NCBI RefSeq assembly: GCF_900116115.1
Contig: NZ_FOZP01000001.1
Location: 326,071 to 390,070, forward strand
DNA length: 64,000 nucleotides
Direction of reading: 5' to 3'
Source of the DNA: Lutibacter maritimus
Lineage (GTDB): Bacteria; Bacteroidota; Bacteroidia; Flavobacteriales; Flavobacteriaceae
Shown: in pieces, positions 9,920-62,661 of the stretch
How positions within the stretch are numbered: position 1 is the first letter of the stretch
Layout of the letters: each line of letters opens with the position of its first letter
Notes under the pieces: generated by a model
What the model was told of the DNA's origin: nothing
What the model saw: the letters and a program-made list of their open reading frames with translations, nothing else
Databases searched by the model: none
Translations under genes and position numbers: made by a program

Positions 9920-10300
9920 ATGGAAAGTCAGATATTATTCTTAAGTGATTTAAACTTCAATTTAGAGGTGTGGAAAAGAGAATTAAAGTTTCAAGAAAGT
10001 GAAATGGATTATTTTGAAGAAAAATTAGAACATATAGCAATTCGTGATTTAGGAAAAGAAGTAATGGTTCGATTAGAACATTTTCAAAATAAAATAATTC
10101 GTGAACGTGAGGTTATGGGTCATTTAAGACATAGGATTAGAATGAAAAAGCGTGAGATTGCACATGCAAAAGTTGAAAATAAACCAGAAGTAGTATTTCA
10201 AGAAAAACAAATACTATTAAAAGATGAAATGAAAACCTTTGTTAAAATGCATTACGATTTAAAAGAAGATATGATGGATTTTTTCCTTAAATATTTATAA
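9920..10300 (+). CDS. Hypothetical coiled-coil protein
   Basis: 126 residues, strongly charged (Glu/Lys), predicted almost entirely helical with heptad-like Leu/Met/Ile spacing from about 20 to 110. There is no signal peptide, membrane span or catalytic motif. I do not recognise a named family. Preceded by a 180-base AT-rich gap and followed by a bidirectional terminator, so it is probably transcribed alone. Confidence 0.65.
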   Translation: MESQILFLSDLNFNLEVWKRELKFQESEMDYFEEKLEHIAIRDLGKEVMVRLEHFQNKIIREREVMGHLRHRIRMKKREIAHAKVENKPEVVFQEKQILLKDEMKTFVKMHYDLKEDMMDFFLKYL

Positions 10301-10301
10301 T

Positions 10302-10337
10302 AAAAAAAGAGTCGCAAATTTTGCGACTCTTTTTTTA
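10302..10337. terminator. Bidirectional terminator
   Basis: A near-perfect hairpin with arms AAAGAGTCGCAAA and TTTGCGACTCTTT, with A/T runs on both sides. It sits between two convergent genes and can serve both. Confidence 0.9.
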
Positions 10338-11222
10338 TTTAAATTGTTTTGAAATTATTTCAGCTTTTTTAGATTGCGAATAATCATAAAATCCTTCACC
10401 AGATTTTACTCCTAATTTTCCGGCTTGTACCATATTAATAAGCAATGGACAAGGAGCGTATTTTGGATTTTTAAATCCATCATATAGCACATTTAAAATA
10501 GATAAACATACATCTAACCCAATAAAGTCTGCTAATTGAAGTGGTCCCATTGGGTGTGCCATTCCTAATTTCATAACTGTATCAATTTCATAAACACCAG
10601 CAACTCCGTTGTACAAAGTTTCAATAGCTTCATTAAGCATTGGCATTAAAATGCGGTTAGCAACAAAACCAGGATAATCATTTACGGCTACAGGAACTTT
10701 TTGCAAGGCTTCTGAAAGTTTCATAATAGTTTCCGTCACTTCTTTTGAAGTATTATAACCATTTATAATTTCAACTAATTTCATAATTGGAACAGGATTC
10801 ATAAAATGCATTCCAATTACTTTTTCGGGTCTTTTTGTTACCGAAGCAATTTTAGTTATTGAAATAGATGAAGTATTAGATGCTAAAATTGTATTATCAG
10901 GAGCAAATTCATCCAATTGTTTAAAAATTTTCAGTTTTAATTCTATATTTTCTGTAGCAGCTTCAACAACTAAATCGCAATTTTTCACTCCTTCTTCAAT
11001 AGATGTGAAAGTTAAAATATTTTGTAAAGTACTATTTTTAGTCTCTACCGAAATTTTTTCTTTTTCAATTAATCTATCAAGGTTTTTAGTGATAGTTGCT
11101 AAACCTTTATTTAATGCTTCCTGAGAAATATCAATTAAACAAACTTTAAAATTTTGTTGTGCAAACACATGCGCAATACCGTTGCCCATAGTTCCTGCAC
11201 CAATAACAGCTATGTTTTTCAT
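10335..11222 (-). CDS. 3-hydroxybutyryl-CoA / 3-hydroxyacyl-CoA dehydrogenase
   Basis: 295 residues. N-terminal NAD-binding Rossmann fold with GAGTMG at residues 8-13, the SNTSS segment and MHFMNPVP with the catalytic His, then the C-terminal helical dimerisation domain (GFVANRILMPMLNEA). It oxidises or reduces (S)-3-hydroxyacyl-CoA, with a role in fatty-acid or butanoyl-CoA metabolism. Last of three minus-strand genes with PhzF and a Gfo/Idh oxidoreductase; the link between them is positional only. Confidence 0.92.
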   Translation of the reverse strand: MKNIAVIGAGTMGNGIAHVFAQQNFKVCLIDISQEALNKGLATITKNLDRLIEKEKISVETKNSTLQNILTFTSIEEGVKNCDLVVEAATENIELKLKIFKQLDEFAPDNTILASNTSSISITKIASVTKRPEKVIGMHFMNPVPIMKLVEIINGYNTSKEVTETIMKLSEALQKVPVAVNDYPGFVANRILMPMLNEAIETLYNGVAGVYEIDTVMKLGMAHPMGPLQLADFIGLDVCLSILNVLYDGFKNPKYAPCPLLINMVQAGKLGVKSGEGFYDYSQSKKAEIISKQFK

Positions 11223-11231
11223 TTTTTTAGT

Positions 11232-12008
11232 TTAAATAGTTATTTTTCCTTTTAAATAAGTTACTGCCTGGCCGCTCATTTCAACTCTGTTTTCTAAATT
11301 TTTACATTTTAAAAATCCTGTACGTTTAGATAATTGCTTAGCAATTAATATGTTTTTGTTTAATATGTTTGCCCAATAAGGTATTAACAATGTATGAGCT
11401 GATCCAGTTACAGGGTCTTCATTAATGCCAATTTTTGGTGCAAAAAAACGAGAAACAAAATCTAAAGAATCTCCTTTTGAAGTTACAATAACTCCAGAAA
11501 ACTCAAGTTCAGTTAATTTACTAAAGTTAGGTTGTAAATTCTGAACTATTTCTTCATTTTGAAGCAATGCTATTATTTTCCATTTTCCTTTAAAAGTTTT
11601 TAAAATTGGAACATTTAATGCTTGTTGAAGGATTATAGGCGTTTCAATTTCTTTTATTTCTTCTGATGAAAAATTTAAAATATACCAATCATTATTTTTT
11701 TCGACAGTTAAAATGTCACTTTTAGAACTGAATTCTATGCTGTTTTTTGTATAATTTAATTCTGTAAAAATTATATGCGCAGCAGCTAAAGTTGCGTGTC
11801 CACATAAATCAATTTCACAAGTAGGAGTGAACCATCTAATTTCAAATTGATGTTTGTTTTGAACAAAAAATACAGTTTCAGATAAATTGTTTTCTTCTGC
11901 AATAGTTTGCATTACATCTTCTGAAATCCAGTTTTTTAAAGGACAAACTGCAGCAGGATTTCCTTTAAATAGTTCATTTGTAAAAGCATCAACCTGGTAA
12001 ATATTCAT
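11232..12008 (-). CDS. PhzF family isomerase/epimerase-like protein
   Basis: 258 residues with the two-fold diaminopimelate-epimerase-like architecture. Seen: DAFTNELFKGNPAAVC near the N-terminus, NNLSETVFF (the Glu is the usual acid/base), DLCGHATLAAAH, and in the second half the matching GINEDPVTGSAHTLL. The reaction of most family members, including this one, is not known; phenazine synthesis is not implied. It lies 1 base downstream of the Gfo/Idh gene. Confidence 0.88.
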   Translation of the reverse strand: MNIYQVDAFTNELFKGNPAAVCPLKNWISEDVMQTIAEENNLSETVFFVQNKHQFEIRWFTPTCEIDLCGHATLAAAHIIFTELNYTKNSIEFSSKSDILTVEKNNDWYILNFSSEEIKEIETPIILQQALNVPILKTFKGKWKIIALLQNEEIVQNLQPNFSKLTELEFSGVIVTSKGDSLDFVSRFFAPKIGINEDPVTGSAHTLLIPYWANILNKNILIAKQLSKRTGFLKCKNLENRVEMSGQAVTYLKGKITI

Positions 12009-15532: not shown

Positions 15533-18262
15533 TTATCCTTGTTTTTTAATAGCAGCTTGTGCAGATGCGATACGTGCAATAGGCACTCTATAAGGAGAAC
15601 AACTAACATAGTTTAAACCAGTATTAAAGCAGAATTCTACTGAATTTGGTTCACCACCGTGTTCACCACAAATACCAACTTTTAAATTAGGTTTTACACT
15701 TCTACCTTTTTCTGTACCCATTTGAACTAATTGTCCAACACCTTCTTGATCTAATACTTCAAAAGGATCAACTTTTAAAATACCTTTTTCAATATAAATT
15801 GGTAAGAATTTTCCAGCATCATCTCTTGAATAACCAAATGCCATTTGAGTTAAATCATTGGTTCCAAATGAGAAGAAATCAGCTTTTTCAGCAATTAAGT
15901 TAGCAGTTAAAGCAGCTCTAGGAATTTCAATCATAGTTCCAACTAAAAATTCAATACTATCATTTCTTTCTTCAAAAACCTTTTGAGCTGTTGCTCTTAT
16001 TATTCCTTCTTGACTTTCAAACTCAGCGATTGTTCCAATTAACGGAACCATAATTTCTGGTTTTGCTTCAATTCCTCTTGCTTTTAAATTTAATGCAGCT
16101 TCAATAATTGCTCTTGCTTGCATTTCTGTTATTTCAGGATAAGTGATACCTAATCTACATCCTCTGTGACCTAACATTGGGTTAAATTCTTCTAACTCAA
16201 CAATTTTACTTTTAACAGCCTCTAATGAAATGTGCATTTCTTCAGCTAATTCTTTTTGTTGCGCTAAAGCATGAGGTACAAACTCATGTAAAGGTGGATC
16301 TAGTAAACGAACAGTAACAGGTAAGCCTGCCATTGCTTCAAAGATTCCTTCAAAATCATCACGTTGCATTGGTAATAATTGATCTAATGCTTGTTTTCTA
16401 CCTTTTACTGTGTCCGATAAAATCATTTCACGCATTGCTTTAATACGATCAACTTCAAAGAACATATGTTCTGTTCTTGTTAAACCAATACCTTGAGCAC
16501 CAAAACTACGAGCTATTTTTGCATCTTTAGGAGAATCAGCATTTGTTCTAACTGCCATTGTTGCATATTTATCTGATAATTCCATAATTTCAGCAAATTC
16601 CCCGCTTAATTCTGGTTCAATAGTTGCAACTTTTCCTTCAATAATATTTCCAGTAGAACCATTTAAAGAAATCCAATCACCTTCTTGATATTCGTGACCA
16701 TCAACGGTTAAAGTTCTGTTTTTGTAATTAATTTTTAACGCACCAGCACCTGAAACACAACATTTTCCCATTCCACGTGCAACAACAGCTGCGTGAGATG
16801 TCATACCACCACGAGCAGTTAAAATACCTTTAGCAATATTCATTCCTTCTAAATCTTCAGGAGAAGTTTCAATACGAACTAAAATACTACTTTTATATTT
16901 TGCAGCTTCGTCAGCAAAGAAAACTATTTGACCAGTTGCAGCACCTGGAGAAGCTGGTAATCCTTGAGCAATTACGTTTGCTTTTTTTAATGCTTTTGGA
17001 TCAAATACTGGGTGTAATAACTCGTCTAATTTATTTGGTTCAACACGTAAAAGAGCTTCTTTTTCAGTAATTAAGCCTTCTTTTAACATTTCCATTGCAA
17101 TTTTAACCATTGCAGCTCCTGTGCGTTTACCATTTCTAGTTTGTAAAATCCAAAGTTTACCGTCTTGCATAGTAAACTCCATATCTTGCATATCTTTATA
17201 ATGCTTTTCTAATTTTTCTTGATAATCATTTAATTCATTATAAATAGTAGGCATTAATTCTTCTAGTGAAGGATAATTTGCTAACCTATCATCTTCTTCA
17301 ACTTTAGCTAATTCTGCCCAACGGATAGATCCAATTTTAGTAATTTGTTGAGGAGTTCTAGTTCCTGCTACAACATCTTCACCTTGCGCATTAATTAAAT
17401 ATTCACCATTAAAAAGATTTTCTCCTGTACCAGCATCACGTGTAAAACAAACTCCAGTACCAGAATTATCACCCATATTTCCATACACCATTGCCTGAAC
17501 GTTTACTGCAGTTCCCCAATCTGATGGATATCCGTGCATATTTCTGTAGTAAACAGCTCTATCTCCATTCCAGCTATTAAAAACAGCTACAACAGCTCCC
17601 CATAACTGATCGTAAGGGTTTGTTGGGAAATCATGACCAGTACGTTTTTTTACTGCATCTTTAAAATCGTATACTAAGTCTTTTAAGTCTTGAACTGTAA
17701 ATTGTGTATCTAATTCAATATTTCGCTTATGTTTTAAGGCTTCCATGATTTCTTCAAAAGGATCAATATCTTCTTTTGATTCTGGTTTCATACCTAAAAC
17801 AACATCACCATACATTTGGATAAAACGACGGTAAGAATCCCAAGCAAAACGCTCATTTCCTGTTCTGTTGGCTAAACCTATAACAACTTCATCATTTAAA
17901 CCTAAGTTTAAAACTGTATCCATCATGCCTGGCATTGAAACTCTTGCTCCAGAACGTACAGAAACTAATAATGGGTTTTCTTTGTCACCAAATTTAGCTC
18001 CCATTATATTTTCAATATTTTCGATTGCTTTTTCAACTTCAGGAGTAATCATATTCACTACAGCTTCTTGACCTAAAAGGTTATATTCTGTACATACTTC
18101 AGTAGTGATTGTGAATCCAGGAGGAACAGGAATACCAATTAAACTCATTTCGGCTAAGTTAGCGCCTTTACCACCTAATAGGTTTTTCATTTTACTATTT
18201 CCGTCTGCAGTTTTATTTCCAAACTTGTAAACTCTAGTTTTGACTTCTTGACTCGTCTCCAT
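15533..18262 (-). CDS. ppdK: Pyruvate, phosphate dikinase
   Basis: 909 residues, full length. Interconverts pyruvate, ATP and phosphate with PEP, AMP and pyrophosphate; a key gluconeogenic or glycolytic switch in Bacteroidota. Seen in order: the nucleotide-binding domain (GGKGANLAEMSLIGIPVPPG near the start), the swivelling phosphohistidine domain with GGMTSHAAVVARGMG (catalytic His about residue 488), and the C-terminal PEP-binding TIM barrel ending in CGEHGGEP. A single-gene unit with its own terminator. Confidence 0.96.
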   Translation of the reverse strand: METSQEVKTRVYKFGNKTADGNSKMKNLLGGKGANLAEMSLIGIPVPPGFTITTEVCTEYNLLGQEAVVNMITPEVEKAIENIENIMGAKFGDKENPLLVSVRSGARVSMPGMMDTVLNLGLNDEVVIGLANRTGNERFAWDSYRRFIQMYGDVVLGMKPESKEDIDPFEEIMEALKHKRNIELDTQFTVQDLKDLVYDFKDAVKKRTGHDFPTNPYDQLWGAVVAVFNSWNGDRAVYYRNMHGYPSDWGTAVNVQAMVYGNMGDNSGTGVCFTRDAGTGENLFNGEYLINAQGEDVVAGTRTPQQITKIGSIRWAELAKVEEDDRLANYPSLEELMPTIYNELNDYQEKLEKHYKDMQDMEFTMQDGKLWILQTRNGKRTGAAMVKIAMEMLKEGLITEKEALLRVEPNKLDELLHPVFDPKALKKANVIAQGLPASPGAATGQIVFFADEAAKYKSSILVRIETSPEDLEGMNIAKGILTARGGMTSHAAVVARGMGKCCVSGAGALKINYKNRTLTVDGHEYQEGDWISLNGSTGNIIEGKVATIEPELSGEFAEIMELSDKYATMAVRTNADSPKDAKIARSFGAQGIGLTRTEHMFFEVDRIKAMREMILSDTVKGRKQALDQLLPMQRDDFEGIFEAMAGLPVTVRLLDPPLHEFVPHALAQQKELAEEMHISLEAVKSKIVELEEFNPMLGHRGCRLGITYPEITEMQARAIIEAALNLKARGIEAKPEIMVPLIGTIAEFESQEGIIRATAQKVFEERNDSIEFLVGTMIEIPRAALTANLIAEKADFFSFGTNDLTQMAFGYSRDDAGKFLPIYIEKGILKVDPFEVLDQEGVGQLVQMGTEKGRSVKPNLKVGICGEHGGEPNSVEFCFNTGLNYVSCSPYRVPIARIASAQAAIKKQG

Positions 18263-18403
18263 CTTTAAATTTTATATTTATGTTAATCTTTAGTTTTAAT
18301 GTTTACAAATTTAATAAGAGTCGCTGTAGATTATTATGATTTATGTCATTCAATTTTATCAAATTAATGCAATGTAATTATTGTTACGAGCCCAATAATT
18401 CAA

Positions 18404-18433
18404 TAAAAAAGGGAGGTTATTAAACCTCCCTTA
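18404..18433 (-). terminator. Terminator of the RND efflux operon
   Basis: AAGGGAGGTT pairs with AACCTCCCTT, with a T-run on the minus strand. It lies just after the minus-strand tolC-like gene. Confidence 0.88.
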
Positions 18434-18454
18434 AATAAATTTATTTTTATAGAA

Positions 18455-19774
18455 TTAAAATTCAATATTTAGAAGGTCACCAGAAAGTTGTAGAATTATT
18501 AATTCGGCGTTTTTTGCATCGTATTTAGCCTGATTTAAACTAGATTGAGCGTTTAAAAGGTTTATTTGAGCTTGTCTAAATTCAATTGTAGTAATTTGTC
18601 CTAATTTAAATTGTTCTTCTGTTCTTGAAAAGTTTCTAAAGTTGGTTTCCACATTTTTTTCTTCGGCTTGTAAAATAAACAATGCATTATTGTAAACTTC
18701 AAGTGCGTTTGCAATGGAACGTTCTATACTATTGTTAATTTGTTCTTTTTGAATTTGCAGGTTATCTGCAATTATTTTAGAGTTTTGTATACGAGTTTTT
18801 GTTGTTCCTCCATCAAAAATATTCCAATTTAAACTGATTCCGGCTGATAATCCTTTTGAAAGTTGTTCTGCGTAATTGAAAGTAGCGTCGTTGTCAGATT
18901 TGCTAAAACCATACGAGCTATTTAAGTTAAGGGTAGGCAATAAATCTGATTTATTAATTTTAAGATCAAATTCATTTAAAACAATACTTTTATTTAGTTT
19001 TTGAATTTCAATATTTTTCAATTTTGCTTTTTCTAAAATCGCATTGTATTCAAAAAACAAATTAAAAGAAACGTTTGTGTTTACATTAAAATTGGTAGTA
19101 ACATTTCTTCCTAACAATAAGTTTAAATCACGTTTTGCATTTGCTAATAAACGGTTGATATTGATATATCTGATACTATCATTATTTACATCAACTTCAG
19201 CATTTAATAATTGCAATTTTGTGCTTTGTCCATATTCAAAAGCGTAATTGGCACGTTTTAATCGTTGTTTTGAAATAGATAATGTTTCAAAAATATTTTT
19301 AGTATCTTCAGTTAAACGGGCAACTTCATAATACATAGTGAAAACTTGTAATAATGAATTTTCTATGATTGCTTTTGTTTCTAATTCTGATAAATTATAA
19401 GTTTCTTTTAGTTTTTTATAGTTATAAGTTCTTCCAAACCCATCAAATATTGTATAATTTAAACCAATAGAACCATTATAGTTTTTTGATTCTGCATTTG
19501 TAGTTTTTGAAATGATATTATTTTGCGATGTATTTTCAGTACTGTTATTTGAATAGTTAATACCAGAGGAAGCGGTAACTTTAGGTAAGTAACCGCTGTT
19601 AAAAATACTGGCGTTATTTTCTGCTATTTTAATATTATTTTTAGCAATTAAAATTCCATAATTATTTTCTAAAGCTAATGAAACTGCCTCTTTTTTACTA
19701 AGTTGTTCTTGCGAAAAACTTAATATACCCATCAATAAAAATAAAAAGTATAAATTGTTTTTAATATGTTTCAT
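18455..19774 (-). CDS. TolC family outer-membrane efflux channel
   Basis: I place the start at 19774, giving 439 residues and a proper signal peptide (MKHIKNNLYFLFLLMGILSFSQ); an upstream in-frame Met would only add 12 polar residues inside the previous gene. The protein shows the duplicated long-helix TolC layout (residues about 25-215 and 240-430, with similar segments such as ...NILNAQSSLNQAKY). It overlaps the RND pump gene by 14 bases. It provides the outer-membrane duct of this tripartite pump. Confidence 0.9.
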   Translation of the reverse strand: MKHIKNNLYFLFLLMGILSFSQEQLSKKEAVSLALENNYGILIAKNNIKIAENNASIFNSGYLPKVTASSGINYSNNSTENTSQNNIISKTTNAESKNYNGSIGLNYTIFDGFGRTYNYKKLKETYNLSELETKAIIENSLLQVFTMYYEVARLTEDTKNIFETLSISKQRLKRANYAFEYGQSTKLQLLNAEVDVNNDSIRYININRLLANAKRDLNLLLGRNVTTNFNVNTNVSFNLFFEYNAILEKAKLKNIEIQKLNKSIVLNEFDLKINKSDLLPTLNLNSSYGFSKSDNDATFNYAEQLSKGLSAGISLNWNIFDGGTTKTRIQNSKIIADNLQIQKEQINNSIERSIANALEVYNNALFILQAEEKNVETNFRNFSRTEEQFKLGQITTIEFRQAQINLLNAQSSLNQAKYDAKNAELIILQLSGDLLNIEF

Positions 19775-53240: not shown

Positions 53241-53652
53241 TTTAGCACCCAAATTTTGTGATGGTACTTCTATATAAATACTGCTCACAAATTGATACAA
53301 AGTTGCTGGGTTTTGTAAGTAAAGTTGCTTTACTTTAAAAAAAAAGTTGTACAATTTATTGTAAAAAAATGTACAACTATCTTAAAAATGTTGTACAATT
53401 AATTTATAAAAGTAGTACTTTATAAATAAAGGACTTATTATTTGAGCGAATTTTATAATAACTTATGCTACTATAAAGATACTATATTTTGTAGTAATAA
53501 ACCTTATTTTGTTGTTTTTTTATTAACAGATACTTTACTAATTTTAACAAAAAGATACTATTTAATTTAAAAATTGCGAATAAATGAACGTATTATACGG
53601 TTATCCGTAAAATTTTAATTTGATAATTGTTATTTTTATATGGATATAACAA
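53241..53652. other. AT-rich stretch without genes
   Basis: No reading frame of credible length on either strand. Contents: three TTGTACAA-type motifs (53347-53398), three short AGATACT words (near 53477, 53528 and 53552), and a small TACGGTTATCCGTA hairpin (53596-53609). The right part may be a degenerate recombination site or the attachment site of the cassette array. Confidence 0.5.
53347..53398. promoter_or_regulatory. Three phased GTACAA motifs
   Basis: TTGTACAA at 53347-53354, TGTACAA at 53370-53376 and TTGTACAA at 53391-53398. The starts are 23 and 21 bases apart, about two helical turns. The words are palindromic. They could be operator sites, but no regulated gene is evident downstream for 800 bases. 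Confidence 0.4.
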
Positions 53653-53664
53653 GTTAGCAACAAT
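53526..53664 (+). repeat. R0: candidate degenerate first attachment site (attI-like or attC-like)
   Basis: The right end, TATAACAA then GTTAGCAACAAT (53653-53664), has the shape of the right arm of the repeats farther down. Its core GTTAGCAACA complements the left core of R1 (ATGTGGCTAAC, 9 of 11 positions). A small hairpin lies in the middle. The left arm is not convincing. It marks the left border of the array. Confidence 0.35.
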
Positions 53665-54056
53665 AGGTCAAGACGAATTAAGTAGTTCATTATGAACGAA
53701 TTGTTTAACAAATTATAAATACGTTCTTTAAATTTAATCGGATAGATTTGATCCTTTTTTGGGAACTAAACGCTAGATAGTTTTAGTTTTTTAAGAAACT
53801 GAAATCTACATTGATAAATGAGTCGTTTAAAGAAAATTTTCGGTTGCGTTCTGCCTCGTTCTAATCCAAAAAAGGCGCAAATGAAAATCTTAAACTACCA
53901 ACCTAAATGCAAGATAGTTGGTTTTGTATTTTAAATGTGATTCGATTTATCAAAATTGAAATGTTTGTTTAAAAACGTATCGCTGGCATTCTGTCTCGGT
54001 TGGTTTTGGTGAAAATAAATAAGGTACGTTTTTGCCCAAAGTTTGGTGTTGCCCTA
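53654..54056 (+). other. Body of cassette 0: no long gene, two degenerate tandem repeats
   Basis: No frame above 40 codons on the plus strand. Two related stretches, about 53764-53877 and 53893-54011, share GATAGTT, (A)TTGA-AAATG, GTTTAAA and a GCGTTCTGCCTCG / GCATTCTGTCTCG block. One small frame at 53818-53934 would give a basic 38-residue peptide (MSRLKKIFGC...). It is either a structured RNA unit, a decayed cassette or a small-protein gene. Confidence 0.45.
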
Positions 54057-54193
54057 ATGTGGCTAACATTGTATAACCAAAATTGCTTATTTCACTAAAT
54101 TAGAACAATTCTTAATTCTTAAAATGTTATATTTAACATCGAAAAATTGTAAAAACCAAACGCAACTTTGGTTCATACTAAACCGTTGCCAGC
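54057..54193 (+). repeat. R1: attC-like repeat closing cassette 0
   Basis: 137 bases. The left core ATGTGGCTAAC and arm TATAACCAAA pair with the right arm TTTGGTTCATA and core GTTGCCAGC. The centre has nested hairpins (ACAATT/AATTGT around ATGTTA/TAACAT). Sequence is divergent from R3-R9 but has the same plan and length. Confidence 0.8.
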
Positions 54194-54211
54194 AATTAGA
54201 TTACAAGAAAA

Positions 54212-54760
54212 ATGACAAATAAAATAGGACTTTTTACTGCTTTGATTTCATTTTTGATTGGAACAATTTTGTTAATTATTTTTTATTTGACAAATTCATA
54301 TTCCATGACATTATTCGGAATGATTTTTATTGCTATTGCAGGAATTATTAATTTAGGCGTTTTGGTAAAAGTTCTGATTAATTTAATAAACGAAAAAGAG
54401 AATAGAAAAAAACATATTCTAACATCTGGAATAATGATTTTAAATATTCCTATCGCGGTTTTCTATTTTTTTATTGTTATGTTTTTAATGAGTACTATGA
54501 GAATTTCATTGATTAATGAAACTGGAGCTAAATTGACTGATTTAAAAATAATTGGAGGAGAAACTAAAATAATAAATGAGCTTGGAGTTGGAGAAAGACA
54601 AACTGAGTGGATTCCAATAAAATCTGAAAATCCCATTATTCTTGAATATAGAATTGACGGAGAAACTAAGCATGAAACGATTTATTCTTATCCAGTTACA
54701 GGAGAAAGAATTAATCATAGAATAGGAAATAATTCAAATAGAATTGAGAATACATATTAA
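54212..54760 (+). CDS. Cassette A: hypothetical three-span membrane protein
   Basis: 182 residues. Three membrane helices (about 8-28, 33-56 and 72-96) and a soluble C-terminal domain (100-182), predicted beta-rich, with ISLINETGAKLTDLKIIGGETKIINEL. I do not recognise a named family. Starts 18 bases after the core of R1 and ends 7 bases before the left core of R2, so the gene fills its cassette almost completely, as is usual in integrons. Confidence 0.68.
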   Translation: MTNKIGLFTALISFLIGTILLIIFYLTNSYSMTLFGMIFIAIAGIINLGVLVKVLINLINEKENRKKHILTSGIMILNIPIAVFYFFIVMFLMSTMRISLINETGAKLTDLKIIGGETKIINELGVGERQTEWIPIKSENPIILEYRIDGETKHETIYSYPVTGERINHRIGNNSNRIENTY

Positions 54761-54767
54761 AATAAAA

Positions 54768-54904
54768 GCTGGCAACACTGCATATACTTTATTGCTTGGT
54801 CATAGCCTACTTACGAAAATCCTCGCGGATTTTCTATTCGGTAATTATTTACTAAATTAGGTGCTTAAACCACGCAACAAAGCATATTCAAACACGTTGG
54901 CAGT
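54768..54904 (+). repeat. R2: attC-like repeat closing cassette A
   Basis: 137 bases. The left core GCTGGCAAC is the exact complement of GTTGCCAGC at the start of the same cassette. Arm CATATACTTTATTGC faces CAACAAAGCATATTC. Central hairpin GAAAATCC-TCGC-GGATTTTC. The right core GTTGGCAGT starts cassette B. Confidence 0.87.
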
Positions 54905-54922
54905 AAGCTAAAAATAGAAATT

Positions 54923-55531
54923 GTGACAAAAAAAGAATATCAAGAAGAAATATTAGAATTAAAGAGTGAAGATGATAAGAAAATTTTCACTCAGAAACAC
55001 TACTTTCACGGACTACCTTTAGTTTTTGAGAATAGAGAAAATGAGTATTACTATTTCCGAAAAAAAATTGCTGATAATTTTAAAATTGATTTTTATGAGG
55101 TTCTAATTGTTGGTTCTTCTAAATTTGGTTTCAGCCCATATAAATTAACAGACTTTTCATTAAATTCAGATATTGATGTTGTAATTTTCAATGAAAAATT
55201 ATTTGATATTTATTTCGAGTTAATAAGTGAATATCAATACAAAATTAAAAAACAAATTATAAGGCTAAGTTCGGCACAATCCAAAGAATATTTAAAATTT
55301 ATAAAATATTTTATACGAGGATGGATGAGACCCGATTTACTACCACAAAATACGACTGAATTTAAGGAGATTAGACAAAATTGGGATGATTTTTTCTTAA
55401 GTATCTCCTATTCTAAATCACAAGTTGGAAATTATAAAGTAAAGGCTGGTTTGTTTAAAAATCAATCATTTGCAGAAAAATACTATCGCTTTTCAATTGA
55501 AGAAATTACCTATAAATTAAAAAATATTTAA
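54923..55531 (+). CDS. Cassette B, gene 1: nucleotidyltransferase-fold protein
   Basis: 202 residues; start codon GTG. The segment VGSSKFGFSPYKLTDF...SDIDVVIF (residues about 63-90) matches the nucleotidyltransferase pattern hGS...DhD, with the Asp pair expected to bind metal. Found in DNA polymerase beta-like enzymes, CD-NTases and antitoxin-like proteins. The gene ends 1 base before the DUF262 gene and shares its cassette, so the two products probably act together. What it modifies is unknown. Confidence 0.72.
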   Translation: MTKKEYQEEILELKSEDDKKIFTQKHYFHGLPLVFENRENEYYYFRKKIADNFKIDFYEVLIVGSSKFGFSPYKLTDFSLNSDIDVVIFNEKLFDIYFELISEYQYKIKKQIIRLSSAQSKEYLKFIKYFIRGWMRPDLLPQNTTEFKEIRQNWDDFFLSISYSKSQVGNYKVKAGLFKNQSFAEKYYRFSIEEITYKLKNI

Positions 55532-55532
55532 A

Positions 55533-56528
55533 ATGTCAAAACAAATTCCTGCACAACCAGATAAAAAAACTATATCAGATCTTATAGGTAAAATTCAAAG
55601 AAACGAGCTAATCCTTCAACCCGAATTTCAAAGAGGTTTTGTTTGGACTCCATCTCATATGGAAAACTTTATTAAAACCATTCTTGATGGCTATCCGTTT
55701 CCGGAAATATATATTTCTCAAAAAGGAATTGACCTAACTACATTATCAACACAAAATGTTGTTGTTGATGGACAACAAAGATTAACGACTATTAAGAGAT
55801 ATATTGATGGTGATTGGGATTTTGAAAAAAGAATTCCTAAATATAAAGAACTATCTGAAAATGAACAGAGAGAATTTTTAAATTATGACGTTACAATACG
55901 TGATTTAAAAGATGTCTCTGCTGATACTATCATAGAAATCTTTAAAAGAATAAATTCAACAAATTTCACATTAACAGCTATTGAAATTAATAACGCTTTA
56001 TATAATGGCGAGTTCATAACTTGTGCAAAAGAAATTTTAAGTATTATAAATGATAATGAATTAAAAGTTCCAATATTTAGTGAAAGTGAATTAACCAGAA
56101 TGGCTGATTTGCATTTTATACTTTTAGTAATGGCAACTTTAGAAGAAGGTGGCTACTTCACCCAAGATAAAGAAGTTGAAAAATATATTTCAAAATATAA
56201 TAATGAATTTCCCAATTTTGAGAATGCAAAAACAATAATATCAGAAACAATAATAGATATTTTGACTAGTGATTTAGAATTAGATTCTATTTGGTTCAGA
56301 AAATCTAATTTTTTTACGCTTGTTTGTGAAATCTCATTATCAAATAAGAAGATAGTTGATATTCTTGAAAATTTGAATATAGCTGAATCAAATATTATAC
56401 AAAATAAAACCGGTGATAAAAGCACAAATGAATTTGCAAAATATTATGCAAGTATGTATGCTGGAACTAATAGTAGACAATCAAGAGTTATCAGAAGTGA
56501 ATTTTTAAAGAAGAATGTATTGATATAA
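55533..56528 (+). CDS. Cassette B, gene 2: DUF262 domain protein
   Basis: 331 residues. The N-terminal DUF262 (GmrSD N-terminal, ParB/sulfiredoxin-like fold) is clear: ISDLIGKIQRNELILQPEFQRGFVW at 10-34, DGYPFPEIYIS, then VVVDGQQRLTTIKRY (79-93) and FKRINSTNFTLTAIEI. The C-terminal half is helical and lacks the DUF1524 HNH nuclease of full GmrSD. DUF262 proteins occur in anti-phage systems; paired here with a nucleotidyltransferase-fold protein. A defence role is inferred. Confidence 0.85.
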   Translation: MSKQIPAQPDKKTISDLIGKIQRNELILQPEFQRGFVWTPSHMENFIKTILDGYPFPEIYISQKGIDLTTLSTQNVVVDGQQRLTTIKRYIDGDWDFEKRIPKYKELSENEQREFLNYDVTIRDLKDVSADTIIEIFKRINSTNFTLTAIEINNALYNGEFITCAKEILSIINDNELKVPIFSESELTRMADLHFILLVMATLEEGGYFTQDKEVEKYISKYNNEFPNFENAKTIISETIIDILTSDLELDSIWFRKSNFFTLVCEISLSNKKIVDILENLNIAESNIIQNKTGDKSTNEFAKYYASMYAGTNSRQSRVIRSEFLKKNVLI

Positions 56529-56533
56529 CGCCA

Positions 56534-56670
56534 ACTGCCAACACCGCGCATAATTTATGCTTACTTTTAAACTAACTATGAACCAAATAACAACCAACGC
56601 ACAATTTGCTACCACCGGAAAATCTCCGATTTCCCAGTTGTACAAATCATATAAAATCACGTTGTAGCAC
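56534..56670 (+). repeat. R3: attC-like repeat closing cassette B
   Basis: 137 bases. The left core ACTGCCAAC exactly complements GTTGGCAGT at the start of cassette B. Left arm CATAATTTATGC; central hairpin GGAAAATC-TCC-GATTTCCC; right arm CATATAAAATCAC and right core GTTGTAGCAC, which starts cassette C. Confidence 0.9.
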
Positions 56671-56686
56671 ATTTAAAAAAATAGAA

Positions 56687-57544
56687 ATGAAAGAAAAAAT
56701 ATTATTAGTTATTATTATATTAACAATGTTAAATATAAATGATATAGTTGGTCAAGAGGTATTTCAAAACTTAAACAATCTACCAAATACAATTGAAGTA
56801 AAAGCTCCTGAATTTAATACAGAAAAAAAATACTATTTCAAATTTGATTCATTTCAAAACGTTCTTCTAATTCAAGATTTAAGGAAATCAAAAAAAGATA
56901 AAGTTCATTATTATCAGTTTTTGTATGAAATCCCTCTTAATAAATTGAATTCTAAAAGTTTTAAAATTTCTAAAGACATAGATAACAACAATGAACTAGA
57001 AATAATTATTAGAACATCCACCAAAGAAATTATGAATTATATGATACAAGATGGTGAAATTAGTTCAATATCAGCTTCAAGTGCTATCTCCTTAGGTAAT
57101 TGGACGTATTCCGATAGTTTATTCAAAGAAATAAGTAATTTAATTAGACCTATTTCAAGTTATCTTTCAAAAGAAAGTTCTTCTTTTGATGTAAAAAAAT
57201 CGTACAAATCAACATTCAAATTCATTGCTGAAAATGTGACTAGCATAAATGCAACTATGGATGATGATTTAAGCATTGGAAATGGGTATTATTATGAACA
57301 GATTCCCAGAAAGCTAAAATCTAAAATTGTTAAAGACATTAAAACTTCTTTAGAACAACAAAACATCAATTATCAATATCCAATACCTGTTATTATTCAC
57401 ATTAGCAAAGATGGAATTTTAGAATCAGTATTTGTAGGTAATCAGCCTTTTGATAAATACTGCCAAATTGATTTGAGGAAATTAAATTCAGTAAAAATTG
57501 AAAATTTAAAAAGACCAATAAAATATTTATTTTTAATAGAATAA
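56687..57544 (+). CDS. Cassette C: secreted protein of unknown family
   Basis: 285 residues from the ATG at 56687; earlier in-frame starts lie inside R3. Signal peptide MKEKILLVIIILTMLNINDIVGQ. The mature protein has many Lys, Asn and Ser residues and mixed predicted strands and helices. The last third (about 225-285) contains PIPVIIHISKDGILESVFVGNQPFDKYCQIDL. No catalytic motif is recognised. The gene stops 5 bases before R4. Confidence 0.66.
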   Translation: MKEKILLVIIILTMLNINDIVGQEVFQNLNNLPNTIEVKAPEFNTEKKYYFKFDSFQNVLLIQDLRKSKKDKVHYYQFLYEIPLNKLNSKSFKISKDIDNNNELEIIIRTSTKEIMNYMIQDGEISSISASSAISLGNWTYSDSLFKEISNLIRPISSYLSKESSSFDVKKSYKSTFKFIAENVTSINATMDDDLSIGNGYYYEQIPRKLKSKIVKDIKTSLEQQNINYQYPIPVIIHISKDGILESVFVGNQPFDKYCQIDLRKLNSVKIENLKRPIKYLFLIE

Positions 57545-57548
57545 AAAC

Positions 57549-57684
57549 GTGCTACAGCACCTCATATAATTTATGCTTACATTTGAACTAGTACAAACCG
57601 ACAAACATTCAATAAACGATTTGCTACCACCGAAAAATCTCCGATTTTTAGGCGCACAAATCATATAAAAACACGTTGCAATTA
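57549..57684 (+). repeat. R4: attC-like repeat closing cassette C
   Basis: About 135 bases. The left core GTGCTACAGC complements GTTGTAGCAC at the start of cassette C at 9 of 10 positions. Arms CATATAATTTATGC and ACAAATCATATAAAA; central GAAAAATC-TCC-GATTTTT hairpin. The left half also contains TACATTTG, a -7-like word. The right core GTTGCAAT starts cassette D. Confidence 0.9.
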
Positions 57685-57699
57685 TTTAAAAAAATTACT

Positions 57700-58602
57700 A
57701 TGAAAAAAATTACTTTCACTATTATTACATTACTCTTTGTGTCTTTTGCTTTTTCACAAGAAGAAGAAGACTATCAACAAAAAATTGACTCTATAGAAAA
57801 ATCATTTAATTATGAATATGGAACAATATCCTTAAAAAATAATATAGGTAAAATAATTATCCCAAATGGTTTCAAATACCTTAATATTGAGCAATCAGAA
57901 AGAGTCCTTACTGATTTATGGGGAAATCCAAAATATACAGATATGACTCTTGGATTGATTCTTCCTGAAAACCAAGGAATAATGGATGATAATGGATACG
58001 TTTTTAATATTCAATATGATGAAATTGGTTATGTTGAGGATGATGATGCTAATAAAATTGACTATGATGAATTGTTAACTCAAATTCAAGATGATTCAAA
58101 GGAAGAAAATAAGGAACGTATTAAGGAAGGTTATGAACCAATAAATATTATTGGCTGGGCATCAAAACCTTATTATGATAAAAGTAAAAAAATTTTACAT
58201 TGGGCTAAAGAAATAAAATTTGGTGATCAAGAAATTAATACATTAAATTACAATATCAGAATTTTAGGAAGAAAAGGAGTTCTTGTTTTAAATGCCATAG
58301 CTACAATACCCGATTTAACATACGTTCAAAATGATATCCCGAAAGTATTAGATATTGTACAATTCTCGGAAGGAAATAAGTATGCTGATTTTGACTCATC
58401 TATTGATGATGTTGCTGCTTGGACAATTGGAGGTTTAGTTGCTGGAAAAGTATTAACAAAAGTTGGGTTCTTTGCCTTAATCTTAAAATTTTGGAAAATT
58501 ATTCTTATTGCAGTGGCTGCATTTTTTAAACCACTCATGAATTTATTTAGAAAAAAGAATCATGAAATTACAAGCAGTAATCAAAAAGAATTGAGTGAAT
58601 AA
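57700..58602 (+). CDS. Cassette D: DUF2167 membrane protein
   Basis: 300 residues from the ATG at 57700; an earlier in-frame TTG is part of the R4 core. Signal peptide MKKITFTIITLLFVSFAFSQ, then the DUF2167 domain: GTISLKNNIGKIIIPNGFKYL, LGLILPENQGIM and GWASKPYYDKSKKILHWAKE. The C-terminus carries one or two membrane segments (about 245-285) and a basic tail. Function of DUF2167 unknown. Note that this is a usually chromosomal family found here within a cassette. Confidence 0.85.
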   Translation: MKKITFTIITLLFVSFAFSQEEEDYQQKIDSIEKSFNYEYGTISLKNNIGKIIIPNGFKYLNIEQSERVLTDLWGNPKYTDMTLGLILPENQGIMDDNGYVFNIQYDEIGYVEDDDANKIDYDELLTQIQDDSKEENKERIKEGYEPINIIGWASKPYYDKSKKILHWAKEIKFGDQEINTLNYNIRILGRKGVLVLNAIATIPDLTYVQNDIPKVLDIVQFSEGNKYADFDSSIDDVAAWTIGGLVAGKVLTKVGFFALILKFWKIILIAVAAFFKPLMNLFRKKNHEITSSNQKELSE

Positions 58603-58612
58603 TTTATAAACT

Positions 58613-58747
58613 ATTGCCAACACCTCAAATAATTTATGCTTAAATTTGAACTAGTACAAACGACAAACATTCAACAAACAATTTGCTACGGCAGAAAAAT
58701 CTCCGATTTTCCAGTCGTACAAATCATATAAAATCACGTTACAAATA
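58613..58747 (+). repeat. R5: attC-like repeat closing cassette D
   Basis: 135 bases. The left core ATTGCCAAC matches the complement of GTTGCAAT, the start of cassette D, with one extra base. Same arms as R4 and R9 and the same GAAAAATC-TCC-GATTTTC centre. Contains TAAATTTG. The right core GTTACAAATA starts cassette E. Confidence 0.9.
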
Positions 58748-58754
58748 ATACTCT

Positions 58755-59318
58755 ATGAAAAAAATATTTACACTAATTGCGCTTCTATCATTTTTGCTAT
58801 CTTATGGACAATTCAGAGAAGGAATAATTTACGACAAAACTGGAAAAGAAAAAAAAGGATTAATTAAAGTTAAAAAGTTTGATGGAATAATTTTCAAATT
58901 AGATGAAAATTCGAAAGAAATTTACTATGACGAAAAGCATATTATCGGATATGACATTAAGAAAGAGAATGACATTGAAAAATACAGATACAAGATAGTC
59001 GAAAACGCATCTTTTTTAAGACCTATGAAAATGGAGATTTCAGGGAAAATTAGTTTATTTAGTGTTAACAATTCTGGTACCCATATGATTCCTATGGGAC
59101 CTAGTGGAGTGATGACCCCAATGGGTTCATTTACTAAGATAGTCTATTTTATTGAAAAAGATAATAGACTTATTAGAACTGGTACTAGATTAGATAAAAA
59201 AACACTCGAATTATTTCAAGACTGCTATACATTAATTGAAAAATTGGATAAAAATGAGATTAAAAAACGAGAGGTTGAAAAAATAGTGAATTTTTATAAT
59301 TCAAACTGTAATAATTAA
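58755..59318 (+). CDS. Cassette E: secreted hypothetical protein
   Basis: 187 residues with a signal peptide (MKKIFTLIALLSFLLSYGQ). The pattern REGIIYDKTGKEKKGLIKVKKFDGIIFKLD...YDEKHIIGYDI recalls a group of Flavobacteriia proteins with a small beta domain; no function is known. A His/Met/Pro/Gly-rich loop (HMIPMGPSGVMTPMG) lies near residues 114-128. Starts 8 bases after the R5 core. Confidence 0.68.
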   Translation: MKKIFTLIALLSFLLSYGQFREGIIYDKTGKEKKGLIKVKKFDGIIFKLDENSKEIYYDEKHIIGYDIKKENDIEKYRYKIVENASFLRPMKMEISGKISLFSVNNSGTHMIPMGPSGVMTPMGSFTKIVYFIEKDNRLIRTGTRLDKKTLELFQDCYTLIEKLDKNEIKKREVEKIVNFYNSNCNN

Positions 59319-59332
59319 ATTTTAAAAAGTAC

Positions 59333-59470
59333 TATTTGTAACACCTCAAATAATTTATGCTTAAATTTAAACTAAAATAACTTACAAACACTCAGCTAAC
59401 GATTTGCTACAACTTGAAAAATCAAAAATTTTTCAAGTTGTAGCAAATTTTATAGAAACTTATTGTTTGT
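59333..59470 (+). repeat. R6: attC-like repeat closing cassette E, with an extended central hairpin
   Basis: About 138 bases. The left core TATTTGTAAC exactly complements GTTACAAATA at the start of cassette E. The centre is replaced by a perfect 21-bp inverted repeat (59402-59422 with 59428-59448, 5-base loop). The right arm is altered and its core reads ATTGTTTG in place of GTTG. Confidence 0.8.
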
Positions 59471-59486
59471 ATTTAAAACAAAAAAT

Positions 59487-60119
59487 ATGAAAAGAATAAC
59501 ATTGCTATTATCATGCTTATTAATAATTTCTTTATCTCAAGCTCAACAAAAAGCAGTTACAGAAACTGGAGAAGAAGTAATTTTATTTGATGATGGAACA
59601 TGGGAATATAAGAATGGTGAGCATATAGAAGAAACTGAAATACCAACCAATTCAAAAAAGTTTGAGAAGGATGAGAATTCAACGTTTTTACTAAAAAGTA
59701 CTAAATTTAATGTTGGTTTTTGGTTAAATCCAAAGATATGGTCATTTAAAAAATCAACTGATAATCCTGATTCAGAATATGAACTTCAACTGAAAGGTGG
59801 AGATTTATATGGAATTATAATATCTGAAAAAGTTCACATCCCACTTGAAACAATGAAATCAATTGCATTAGAAAACGGTAAATCAGTTGCTCCAGATCTA
59901 AAAATTGTAAAGGAAGAATATAGAACTGTTAACGGATTCAAAGTACTTCTTCTTCAAATGAATGGAACTATGCAAGGAATTAAAGTTTCCTACTATAGTT
60001 ATTATTTTTCAAACACAAATGGAACCGTTCAATTCGTAACATATACTTCACAAAATTTAATTGATAGTTATAGTTCGGAAATTGAAAAATTATTGAATGG
60101 CTTCGTTGAACTTAATTAA
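59487..60119 (+). CDS. Cassette F: secreted hypothetical protein
   Basis: 210 residues from the ATG at 59487. Signal peptide MKRITLLLSCLLIISLSQAQ. The mature N-terminus AVTETGEEVILFDDGTWEYKN is a motif seen in many secreted Bacteroidota proteins of unknown role. The rest (about 80-205) looks like a compact alpha/beta domain. No catalytic residues recognised. It ends directly at R7. Confidence 0.7.
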   Translation: MKRITLLLSCLLIISLSQAQQKAVTETGEEVILFDDGTWEYKNGEHIEETEIPTNSKKFEKDENSTFLLKSTKFNVGFWLNPKIWSFKKSTDNPDSEYELQLKGGDLYGIIISEKVHIPLETMKSIALENGKSVAPDLKIVKEEYRTVNGFKVLLLQMNGTMQGIKVSYYSYYFSNTNGTVQFVTYTSQNLIDSYSSEIEKLLNGFVELN

Positions 60120-60242
60120 ACAACACAACTCATAAAATTTATACTTAAAATTGAATTAGAATAACTAACAAACATTCAATAAACACCTAAAAAATCTTTG
60201 ATTTTCAAGCAACTCAAATCTTATAAAAACACCTTGTATGCA
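60118..60242 (+). repeat. R7: attC-like repeat closing cassette F
   Basis: About 125 bases, somewhat shorter. The left core AAACAAC overlaps the stop codon of the cassette F gene; it complements TTGTTT at the cassette start. Arms CATAAAATTTATAC and CAAATCTTATAAAAACAC; centre AAAAATC-TTT-GATTTTC. The right core is CTTGTATGCA, with C in place of the first G. Confidence 0.78.
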
Positions 60243-60260
60243 ATTACAAAAAAATTACTT

Positions 60261-60923
60261 ATGAAAAAAACAATAGCATTATTAATAGTAACAATTTTAA
60301 GTTTTTCCAATACGTTATTTAGTCAAAACAATGAAAGAAATTTCAACCAAATTCTTCAAACATATTACATTGAAAAAGATAATATGCTACTTGAACATTC
60401 TATTGATTTTTTCAACAACATTAATCCTGACAATAAAAATTTAAAACATATTATTATTGGATTTTTTGGAGGATTATTTATCGATTCACCTGAAATAAAA
60501 AATGATTTTAAAAATAATATTGAAAAATTTCAAAATGAGAACATTAAAAACATGTTCACTTCACTTACTAATGAAAATATTAAAACCTTTATGAGTAAAT
60601 ATCCAATTTCTCCATCTTTTAACGATATGAATTGGGCTGCTTTCTTCTCAACAGGTAAAACTGAATATCTTGATTTGATATTTAACAATTGTTCAGAGGC
60701 GGAAAACAGAACAGATTTTAATCTCTTTTTGACAGGAGCTTCAGCTAAATGGTCATTATGCTCAAATTCAAAACAGCACGAGAAAGTTAAAGAATACCTT
60801 GAGTCTAATACAACAAATAGAGAAATGGCTCAGGAAATTTTGAATAGCGACGTTTCTGAATTAAAAAGTAATATTGTTACTATAATAAAAGAACAACGAG
60901 AAAAAGGAATTTGGAATGATTAA
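60261..60923 (+). CDS. Cassette G: secreted hypothetical protein
   Basis: 220 residues from the ATG at 60261; earlier in-frame codons belong to R7. Signal peptide MKKTIALLIVTILSFSNTLFSQ. The mature part is helical, with repeated Phe/Asn/Ile-rich segments that could be HEAT- or TPR-like. One fragment, FFGGLFIDSPEIKNDF, near residue 70. No family recognised. The stop codon touches the left core of R8. Confidence 0.66.
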   Translation: MKKTIALLIVTILSFSNTLFSQNNERNFNQILQTYYIEKDNMLLEHSIDFFNNINPDNKNLKHIIIGFFGGLFIDSPEIKNDFKNNIEKFQNENIKNMFTSLTNENIKTFMSKYPISPSFNDMNWAAFFSTGKTEYLDLIFNNCSEAENRTDFNLFLTGASAKWSLCSNSKQHEKVKEYLESNTTNREMAQEILNSDVSELKSNIVTIIKEQREKGIWND

Positions 60924-61051
60924 CTGCATATTACACCTTATAAAATTTAAACTAGCACATACAATAAACATCCAACAAACGATTTGCAACGTCCGAAAAA
61001 TCTCCAATTTTCCAGTCGAAAAAATCATGTAAAAACTCGTCGTAGCCTAAA
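60924..61051 (+). repeat. R8: attC-like repeat closing cassette G
   Basis: 128 bases. The left core CTGCATATTAC shares TGCATA with the complement of TTGTATGCA at the cassette start (7 of 10). Arms CTTATAAAATTTAAAC and AAATCATGTAAAAACTC. The centre GAAAAATCTCCAATTTTC has one broken pair. The right core GTCGTAGCCTAAA starts cassette H. Confidence 0.8.
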
Positions 61052-61054
61052 ATT

Positions 61055-61699
61055 ATGAAAAAGATAGTATTGCTAAACTTTTTACTGATTCAGATTACTC
61101 TTTTTTCTCAAGAAAAATTGATAGGAAACTATTGTACAATTCCAATAGGCGAATCTGATGTAACCTGTATTAATTTTAAAGAAAATAATCGATTTGTATT
61201 TATTTTATCTGGATGTCTAGGAACCTATAAATATGGAATTGGTAATTATGAAATTAAGAGCTCTGATTTGATTTTATCATTTGACAATAATGACAAAGAA
61301 TTTAGAAGTGAAATTGAGATTTCAGAGATTAAAAACACTACGAAAGACTCAATAATTCATAAATTCAAATTTGTTGACCAATACGGAATTAAAATGATGG
61401 GAGTTAATCTCCATAAAGAATCTGGAGAATTTGAATTCAACGAGAATATTTCGAATCCAAATGGAATTATAACTTTTAAATATATGAAAAATCAAGTGAA
61501 TGAAAATTATGAGGTTGAATTTTTTGGTTATGAGAATTTTAAGTTTCGAATTGAAAATGACAAGAGTTATGAAATATTGATAAAATTGGCTTTATCCAAA
61601 TCAACTTGGATTTTCGGAGAAAAAAGAACTTATCAATTTGAGAGAATTGATAAAGAGTTGATAAAAATTCAAGGAGAAAAATATAAACTGAATAAATAA
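61055..61699 (+). CDS. Cassette H: secreted hypothetical protein
   Basis: 214 residues with a signal peptide (MKKIVLLNFLLIQITLFSQ). The mature part begins EKLIGNYCTIPIGESDVTCINFKENNRFVF and looks like a beta-barrel of lipocalin type (GNYEIKSSDLILSF). Two or three Cys residues in the first 50 may pair. Function unknown. The start lies 3 bases after the R8 core, the closest spacing in the array. Confidence 0.68.
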   Translation: MKKIVLLNFLLIQITLFSQEKLIGNYCTIPIGESDVTCINFKENNRFVFILSGCLGTYKYGIGNYEIKSSDLILSFDNNDKEFRSEIEISEIKNTTKDSIIHKFKFVDQYGIKMMGVNLHKESGEFEFNENISNPNGIITFKYMKNQVNENYEVEFFGYENFKFRIENDKSYEILIKLALSKSTWIFGEKRTYQFERIDKELIKIQGEKYKLNK

Positions 61700-61700
61700 C

Positions 61701-61835
61701 TTTAGGCAACAACTCATATAATTTATGCTTAAATTTAAACTAATATAAACAACAAACATTCAATAAACGATTTATTACGTCCGAAAAATCTCCGATTTTC
61801 CAGTCACACAAACCTTATAAAAGCCCATTGTAAGC
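61701..61835 (+). repeat. R9: attC-like repeat closing cassette H
   Basis: 135 bases. The left core TTTAGGCAACAAC complements GTCGTAGCCTAAA, the start of cassette H, at 11 of 13 positions. Arms CATATAATTTATGC and AACCTTATAAAAGCC; centre GAAAAATC-TCC-GATTTTC. The right core ATTGTAAGC starts the last unit. Confidence 0.87.
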
Positions 61836-61874
61836 TTTGCAGAAATCAAGATTCTAATTAAAATACTTAATAAC

Positions 61875-62297
61875 ATGGAAACAAGATTATTAGGAGAAAA
61901 AGAAGTGTATCCAAATAAAGAAGTTTTAGAAAAAGTTTTAGGAGAAAGTTATTTGGCGTTTAATGCGTTAATAGAAACTCTCTCAAATGAAAAATATGCT
62001 CTTGTACCGGAATGGAGATTTTATAAAGACGGACAATCTTGGTTATGCAAAGTTTCCAATAAAAAAAAGACTGTGTGTTGGATTTCAGCTTGGAATAAAT
62101 TCTTTAAAGTAGGATTCTATTTTACCGAAAAAACACGTTTAGGAATTAATGAATTGGATATTGAAAATAGAATTAAAGAAGATTTTAGTAAAAGTGAAAA
62201 TATTGGCAAACTAATTCCTTTAATAATTAACGTGTCAAGAATTGAACAAATTAATGATGTGCTTAAAATAATTGAATACAAAAAGAAATTAAAATAA
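61875..62297 (+). CDS. Cassette I, gene 1: DUF3788 protein
   Basis: 140 residues, cytoplasmic. Family pattern: LGESYLAFNALIETL near 25-39, then PEWRFYKDGQSWLCKVSNKKKTVCWISAWNKFFKVGFYFTEK (about 46-87). DUF3788 proteins are of unknown function and related in style to other small cassette-borne proteins. Two bases before the DUF2200 gene, with which it probably forms one unit. Confidence 0.86.
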   Translation: METRLLGEKEVYPNKEVLEKVLGESYLAFNALIETLSNEKYALVPEWRFYKDGQSWLCKVSNKKKTVCWISAWNKFFKVGFYFTEKTRLGINELDIENRIKEDFSKSENIGKLIPLIINVSRIEQINDVLKIIEYKKKLK

Positions 62298-62298
62298 T

Positions 62299-62661
62299 AT
62301 GAAAACAACACTAGCACATGATGAACGAATTGCAAACATGGTATTTGCCTCAGTATATCCTCATTATATTAATAAAGTTGAAAAGAAAGGCAGAACAAAG
62401 GATGACTTACATAAAGTTATAACATGGTTAACAGGTTTTGATGATTGTAAACTTCAAGAACTTATCGACGAAAAAGTAACTTTTAAAACATTCTTTGCTG
62501 TTGCAAAATTGAATCCAAATGCTCATTTAATAAAAGGAGTTATTTGTGGTTATAAGATAGAAGAAATTGAAACGCCATTGACAAAAAAAGTAAGATATTT
62601 AGATAAATTGGTAGATGAGTTGGCAAAAGGGAAAGCAATGGAAAAAATATTAAGAAAATAA
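62299..62661 (+). CDS. Cassette I, gene 2: DUF2200 protein
   Basis: 120 residues. Characteristic features: RIANMVFASVYPHYINKVEKKGRTKDDLHKVITWLTGFD at 10-48, then the FFAVAKLNPNAHLIKGVICGYKIEEIETPLTKKVRYLDKLVDELAKGK stretch. A cytoplasmic family of unknown function. No attC-like repeat follows, so it is either the last cassette with a lost site or the array ends here. Confidence 0.9.
   Translation: MKTTLAHDERIANMVFASVYPHYINKVEKKGRTKDDLHKVITWLTGFDDCKLQELIDEKVTFKTFFAVAKLNPNAHLIKGVICGYKIEEIETPLTKKVRYLDKLVDELAKGKAMEKILRK

Follow-up and report, generated by a model that had tools for sequence, protein, structure and literature searches.

The recombination site of an integron gene cassette (attC) is, in the working definition of the field, the one seen in the circular form of the cassette, and the cassette itself begins at the first T of one R' and ends at the G of the following one (PMC2674596). 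Self-pairing of attC over 9–11 nt has already been published, the canonical site is recombined as its bottom strand, and the known integron cut is G^TT (PMC2727003). Integron definitions and software require the IntI-specific insert around patch III (PMC9668308, PMC9024848), IntegronFinder identifies integrases by means of this insert (PMC9024848), and the insert has been described as essential for integron recombination (PMC8138268). For the Bacteroidetes proper, earlier only In0 elements had been recorded, to which IntegronFinder 2.0 then added one complete integron, that of Salinibacter ruber (PMC9024848).

The locus that we compare with these systems lies in a stretch of 64,000 nucleotides of the Lutibacter maritimus genome (NZ_FOZP01000001.1, positions 326,071 to 390,070; hereafter the window) and consists of successive units, each ending in a repeat, on the + strand. 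An earlier note on this DNA had claimed for positions 53653–61713 that a unit opens with a core complementary, in reverse, to the left core of its own terminal repeat. The cores that it quoted are present, and the start core is the reverse complement of the unit's own left core in six of the nine window units. An attI-like site, GGATATAACAAG (53643..53653), which no integrase gene adjoins, stands directly 5' of unit 0 (53653..54185); this unit lacks an ORF, and its start core, GTTAGCAACAA, is complementary at 9 of 11 positions to the left core at 54057–54067 (pair 53653/54067) of the repeat that ends at 54185. Pairing is complete (9/9) both in unit 1 (54185..54896), which has start core GTTGCCAGC, a left core at 54768–54776 (54185/54776) and an ORF at 54212–54760 with no Pfam match, and in unit 2 (54896..56661), which has start core GTTGGCAGT, a left core at 56534–56542 (54896/56542) and ORFs at 54923–55531 and 55533–56528. 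Unit 3 (56661..57675; start core GTTGTAGCAC, left core 57549–57558, ORF 56687–57544) pairs at 9 of 10 positions (56661/57558), unit 5 (58738..59462; start core GTTACAAATA, left core 59333–59342, ORF 58755–59318) at 10 of 10, or 12 of 13 when extended (58738/59342), and unit 8 (61039..61827; start core GTCGTAGCCTAAA, left core 61701–61713, ORF 61055–61699) at 11 of 13 (61039/61713). The remaining three units, absent from the earlier note, pair weakly or with a shift: unit 4 (57675..58738; start core GTTGCAATTA, ORF 57703–58602 with DUF2167) has a weak left core at 58613–58621 offset by one base (57675/58621), unit 6 (59462..60233; start core ATTGTTTG with A at the G position, ORF 59487–60119) a weak left core reaching to 60124 (59462/60124), and unit 7 (60233..61039; start core CTTGTATGCA, ORF 60261–60923) a partial one at 60925–60934 (60233/60934). 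The last unit (61827..62661), with start core ATTGTAAGC and ORFs at 61875–62297 (DUF3788) and 62299–62661, is recognizable by its start only; a search for a left core matching ATTGTAAGC found none.

The genes of the window are mostly without a Pfam match, the exceptions being one DUF2167, one DUF3788, and one GmrSD/NsnA-like gene, and an Rfam scan of the window returned one tRNA and nothing else. The GmrSD_N / NsnA-like gene is the one at 55533–56528 in unit 2, with 54923–55531 as its partner ORF, and is likely anti-phage defence cargo. In a set of 183 clean units, with a median length of 760 bp, the longest ORF runs in the array direction in 145 and in reverse in 6, and 32 are without an ORF of 50 aa.

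We count 33 good copies of the repeat family in the genome itself, on contigs C20, C5, C6 (29 kb, mostly array), C18, C14, C13, and C17 and at a second place on C19, and the repeats of one array are 60–95% alike. Across 24 neighbouring copies in this genome, the variable positions match at 4.0 of 7 within units versus 2.67 within repeats, and a sum as high as the observed one did not arise in any of 100,000 permutations. This permutation test is diluted by undetected sites of other families lying in between, and we therefore used a blind approach, in which a position matrix trained on the flanks, with the six variable core bases ignored, was applied to 29 loci, of which relatives contributed 20. 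The matrix called 338 sites, and the six variable core bases match completely in 154 of 249 units shorter than 1200 bp versus 10 of 338 repeats. As controls, we took the opposite strand of these loci and 112 kb of DNA outside arrays from the same genome; together they gave 8 pairs, of which none matches at 6/6. The comparison over many arrays that the earlier note had proposed thus shows within-unit matches far exceeding within-repeat matches, and the same blindly called sites bear out its statement that the two cores inside one physical repeat generally disagree. Core pairing within units is confirmed as real and general. What the earlier note missed is core position 11, complementary in only 8% of cases: in 148 of the 183 clean units, an A at the unit start faces a left-core C there, a pair that mismatches on the top strand and wobbles as T–G on the bottom one. 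The pairing rule itself is not new, since integron cassettes are known to follow it (PMC2674596, PMC2727003); core pairing alone is textbook, and its value is that it identifies arrays as cassettes without any attC model.

Repeats folded as they stand in the array give a weak signal or none, since it takes the circle to bring the two halves of the paired site together: an outer stem is formed by 99% of the sites of the 183 clean units when circle-joined, versus 10% of the identical sites in array form. The sites, mostly ~120 nt long, are laid out as an outer core stem, an unpaired spacer of ~3 versus 6 nt, and a long inner stem, with a consensus over the clean units of AAC-A(C/A)C-GNNTATAATTAATTGC for the left arm and, read back, AAC-GGTTTT-GNNTATGATTAGTTGC for the right arm. 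The core consensus is GTTR-N5-MAK, in which GTT and the R at position 4 are kept; GTTRRRY fits only 21 of 183 cores (11%). The inner L stem has the consensus GNNTATrATTArTTGC, with wobbles mostly on the bottom strand, and the fixed disagreements between the arms, at core position 11 and at two A/G inner-stem positions, read A–C on top and T–G on the bottom. Some sites have one extra base in the right arm, and no fixed extrahelical base of the L stem, the kind that directs strand choice in IntI-type integrons, was established. Predicted folding favours the bottom strand in 178 of the 183 sites, and G–T pairs number 882 of 9174 on the bottom versus 126 of 8187 on top. The bottom-minus-top energy averages -3.9 kcal/mol versus -1.0 (sd 1.6) in base-composition shuffles, 73% of which lean the same way, though less strongly, so that the strand bias is due in part to base composition.

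The earlier note had further proposed that each unit was once a circle with a paired site and was inserted by a cut just inside the right core, and this proposal gains support from the within-unit pairing, the stem that forms almost only in the circle, the core adjacent to attI, and the recurrence of units. Near-identical units at different places have both breaks at GTT in 5 of 27 pairs, versus 0.33 expected. The window unit 53653–54184 recurs in contig C6 at 98.9% identity with a GTT break on both sides, and its left neighbour is attI in the window and another repeat in C6. One 353-nt unit stands at attI and at two inner places in L108, a 731-nt unit is present twice in L110, and a 176-nt unit without an ORF is present three times on a Chryseobacterium plasmid (L143). 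An exact cut at G^TT is consistent with these junctions; since G precedes TT in nearly all units, C^G, G^T, and T^T cuts are indistinguishable from junctions alone.

On contig C20, an array of the same kind follows a gene for a 395-aa tyrosine recombinase and an attI-like ATATAACNNGTT site, the order being the integrase stop, 174 nt, GGATATAACAAG-TT (L009:11418-11430), and the array. The attI-like sequence of C20 stands identically at 53643 in the window, where no integrase accompanies it. The window region 53580–53653 comprises this attI-like site and an upstream TTATCC box, and the only close integrase gene is that on C20; the window holds a second, orphan attI with its own short array, presumably served in trans. 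The earlier note named no recombinase, the gene being on another contig. Among 42 integrase loci, ATATAACN1-4GTT occurs within 300 nt after the integrase stop in 33 (median distance 36 nt) and was never found in the same length upstream of the integrase; no recognizable attI was found in the other 9, and the closest named orthologue, from Lutibacter (L091), has none in the 300 nt after its stop. Members from other classes (38–41% identity) have a similar ATAAAC-NA-GTT after the stop. In 12 of 20 loci, the core next to attI finds its exact 9-nt complement in a left core further along, and the first cassette therefore belongs to attI.

Several genomes have in common a GTTTATCCGGA box ~45 nt before attI (L009:11383-11430 and the attI regions of L066, L067, and L073), and in some loci a TAnnTTTG sequence of the Bacteroidetes -7 type lies just before attI; either could possibly be a cassette promoter or an accessory site. 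A 1.55-kb segment occurs three times in one array (L105:6469-8040, 10154-11707, and 17964-19538), its copies 98–99.7% alike. The segment ends at GATACA and not at a core, and is perhaps a transposon living in the sites.

The candidate recombinase (L009:10066-11253, contig C20, 395 aa) is the only close gene of its kind in the genome. In an alignment, it lacks the ~44 residues before the HxxRH motif in which IntI differs from Xer, and we refer to it and its orthologues as patch-less. Its TIGR02249 score is 197 bits against a cut-off of 265, with profile positions 180–238 unmatched, and its best NCBIfam score, 215.6 bits to NF040815 (XerA), falls just below the cut-off of 220. The catalytic residues are kept, with R233, HTLRH, GH, and Y357 invariant. 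Our tree of 71 proteins recovers an IntI clade (100/100) and places 36 patch-less flavobacterial enzymes in a separate clade (100/99); four more distant patch-less sequences sit on long branches and their placement is unsure. The patch-less enzyme has a conserved N-terminal domain of ~95 aa (L009:10066-10350), and as a weak lead we mention that it may resemble HARP, the fork-binding domain of SMARCAL1. The similarity is slight, with PF07443 matched in 4 of 24 members (best E 9.5e-5) and an E of 0.41 against the SMARCAL1 HARP structure 4o66; a single-sequence AlphaFold model of the domain was poor (pLDDT 57), and Foldseek gave nothing reliable.

Orthologues of the integrase (E <=1e-60) are present in 166 of 397 genomes of the family and 119 of its 237 genera, and in 31 of 38 genomes of the genus; Lutibacter is also the source of L091, the closest relative with a name. 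Across the phylum, 54 of 395 sampled genomes have an orthologue, the genomes of these surveys standing one per species. True IntI occurs in 105 of 395 genomes sampled over the phylum, and no IntI above the cut-off was found in the genome itself or among the listed genomes of its own family. Four genomes of one other family (G489, G543, G666, and G684) have true IntI and the patch-less enzyme together and are good material for a side-by-side comparison. The Chryseobacterium plasmid NZ_CP041688.1 (L143:7134-9405) carries integrase, attI, and units. In IMG/VR, 43 relatives of the catalytic domain were found, none with the N-terminal domain, and we therefore see no sign of phages carrying the system. 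A TnpF/recombinase gene 5' of tet(X3) on Acinetobacter plasmids (L145:5064-7085; likewise L142:5064-7085 on plasmid pHH1107) is a truncated homologue of the patch-less integrase at 46% identity, and a core-like sequence, GTTATGTGCCAT, lies between the two genes. We do not claim tet(X3) as a cassette of the patch-less system, as no matching left core lies 3' of the gene, and mention it as a lead only.

We consider it highly probable that the window array is a gene-cassette array functioning in the manner of an integron, by way of a patch-less recombinase, a folded bottom strand, and attI. The sequence shows that each unit brings its own ~120-nt recombination site at its 3' end, a site that is whole only in the circular unit because the right core is then the unit's own start, and that units, most of them with one gene in the array direction, have entered both at attI and in between units, the breaks falling at the core's G-TT. 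Excision, circle formation, strand use, and the part played by the enzyme we infer from sequence and gene neighbourhood. The substrate, in an assignment that the folding supports well, would be the folded bottom strand (outer R stem, T–G wobble, unpaired spacer, and inner L stem) joined to double-stranded attI. The enzymes predicted to serve these arrays are the C20 tyrosine recombinase and its orthologues, encoded directly 5' of an attI-like site and array. What counts against this explanation is that the insert is held to be essential (PMC8138268), yet the C20 enzyme is without it; further points against it are the 9 of 42 loci with no recognizable attI and the L091 orthologue with none after its stop, the three window units that pair poorly, and the share of the strand bias owed to base composition. 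We regard as evenly balanced the broader proposition that an insert-less clade of tyrosine recombinases recombines folded single-stranded attC-like sites in Bacteroidota, recognizing them in another way, perhaps through the N-terminal domain; if it does so, integron function would predate the insert or have arisen twice.

A Xer-like enzyme could instead recombine double-stranded palindromic sites via circles, in which case the pairing would reflect two inverted binding sites with no single-strand folding. The enzyme does resemble XerA/Xer and lacks the insert linked to single-strand recognition, and attI looks like a plain Xer-type site (AAC-NN-GTT), but an inverted-binding-site model predicts no strand bias, whereas the wobbles and spacer lengths fixedly favour one strand, and we judge this reading unlikely. 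It is quite improbable, in our view, that a true IntI, present or former, built the arrays as those of an ordinary integron with the C20 recombinase an unrelated neighbour: attI follows the patch-less enzyme and not IntI in 33 of 42 loci, and does so in other classes as well, only 21 of 183 cores fit GTTRRRY, and IntI is above the cut-off neither in the genome itself nor in any listed genome of the family, even though the architecture is attC-like (AAC...GTT, bottom-strand folding, the circle rule) and true IntI exists elsewhere in the phylum sample (105/395 genomes). The earlier note had argued that a plain tandem or terminator repeat would not give the pattern, and we agree. If homologous recombination or gene conversion had spread tandem or REP/terminator-like repeats, this would suit the 60–95% likeness of repeats within an array, but such repeats would not make unit ends complementary while the cores of one repeat disagree, do not account for breaks at GTT, and leave the link to attI and integrase unexplained; we give this origin almost no credence.

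An integron-like platform with a non-IntI recombinase in Flavobacteriaceae and further Bacteroidota appears to be new as far as the open papers that we searched go; we found no report of the patch-less platform in the open-licence literature searched, which is no proof of absence. It seems that a widespread flavobacterial gene-capture system has been overlooked because the enzyme linked to it lacks the domain that defines integron integrases. The platform is present in ~40% of the flavobacterial genomes sampled; it also occurs in further classes of the phylum and on plasmids of Chryseobacterium, and, if it works as inferred, would constitute a large unseen route of gene capture. It would also open to testing the way in which tyrosine recombinases came to use folded single strands as substrates, and with it the need for the I2 insert, a standing question (PMC4792948).

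Set beside IntI chromosomal integrons (class 1 and sedentary; TIGR02249), the system has in common an attI followed by an array of one-gene cassettes, among them cassettes without an ORF, a 3' site per cassette that becomes whole only on circularization, AAC...GTT ends, core pairing of ~9–11 nt, an unpaired central spacer, and a favoured bottom strand, the last being a prediction here. It differs in that the recombinase is without the insert, forms a separate clade, and has the extra N-terminal domain of ~95 aa; in that attI lies just after the integrase stop, with array and integrase in the same direction; and in its core, GTTR-N5-MAK, of which 11% fit GTTRRRY, and its ~120-nt sites with an inner consensus of their own. 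Integrons with the integrase in array orientation, such as those of Treponema, likewise have attI 3' of the integrase and the array in the same direction, and have a true IntI; the patch-less system shares this layout with Treponema-type integrons, but without a true IntI. With XerA, XerC, and XerD (NF040815, TIGR02224/02225), the enzyme shares the catalytic domain; unlike them, it is linked to attI and cassette arrays and not to dif, and the separate Xer-like proteins of the genome (L057 and L058) lie far from it in the tree. On sequence grounds, we would class the system as integron-like and, by the integrase criterion, not as an IntI integron.
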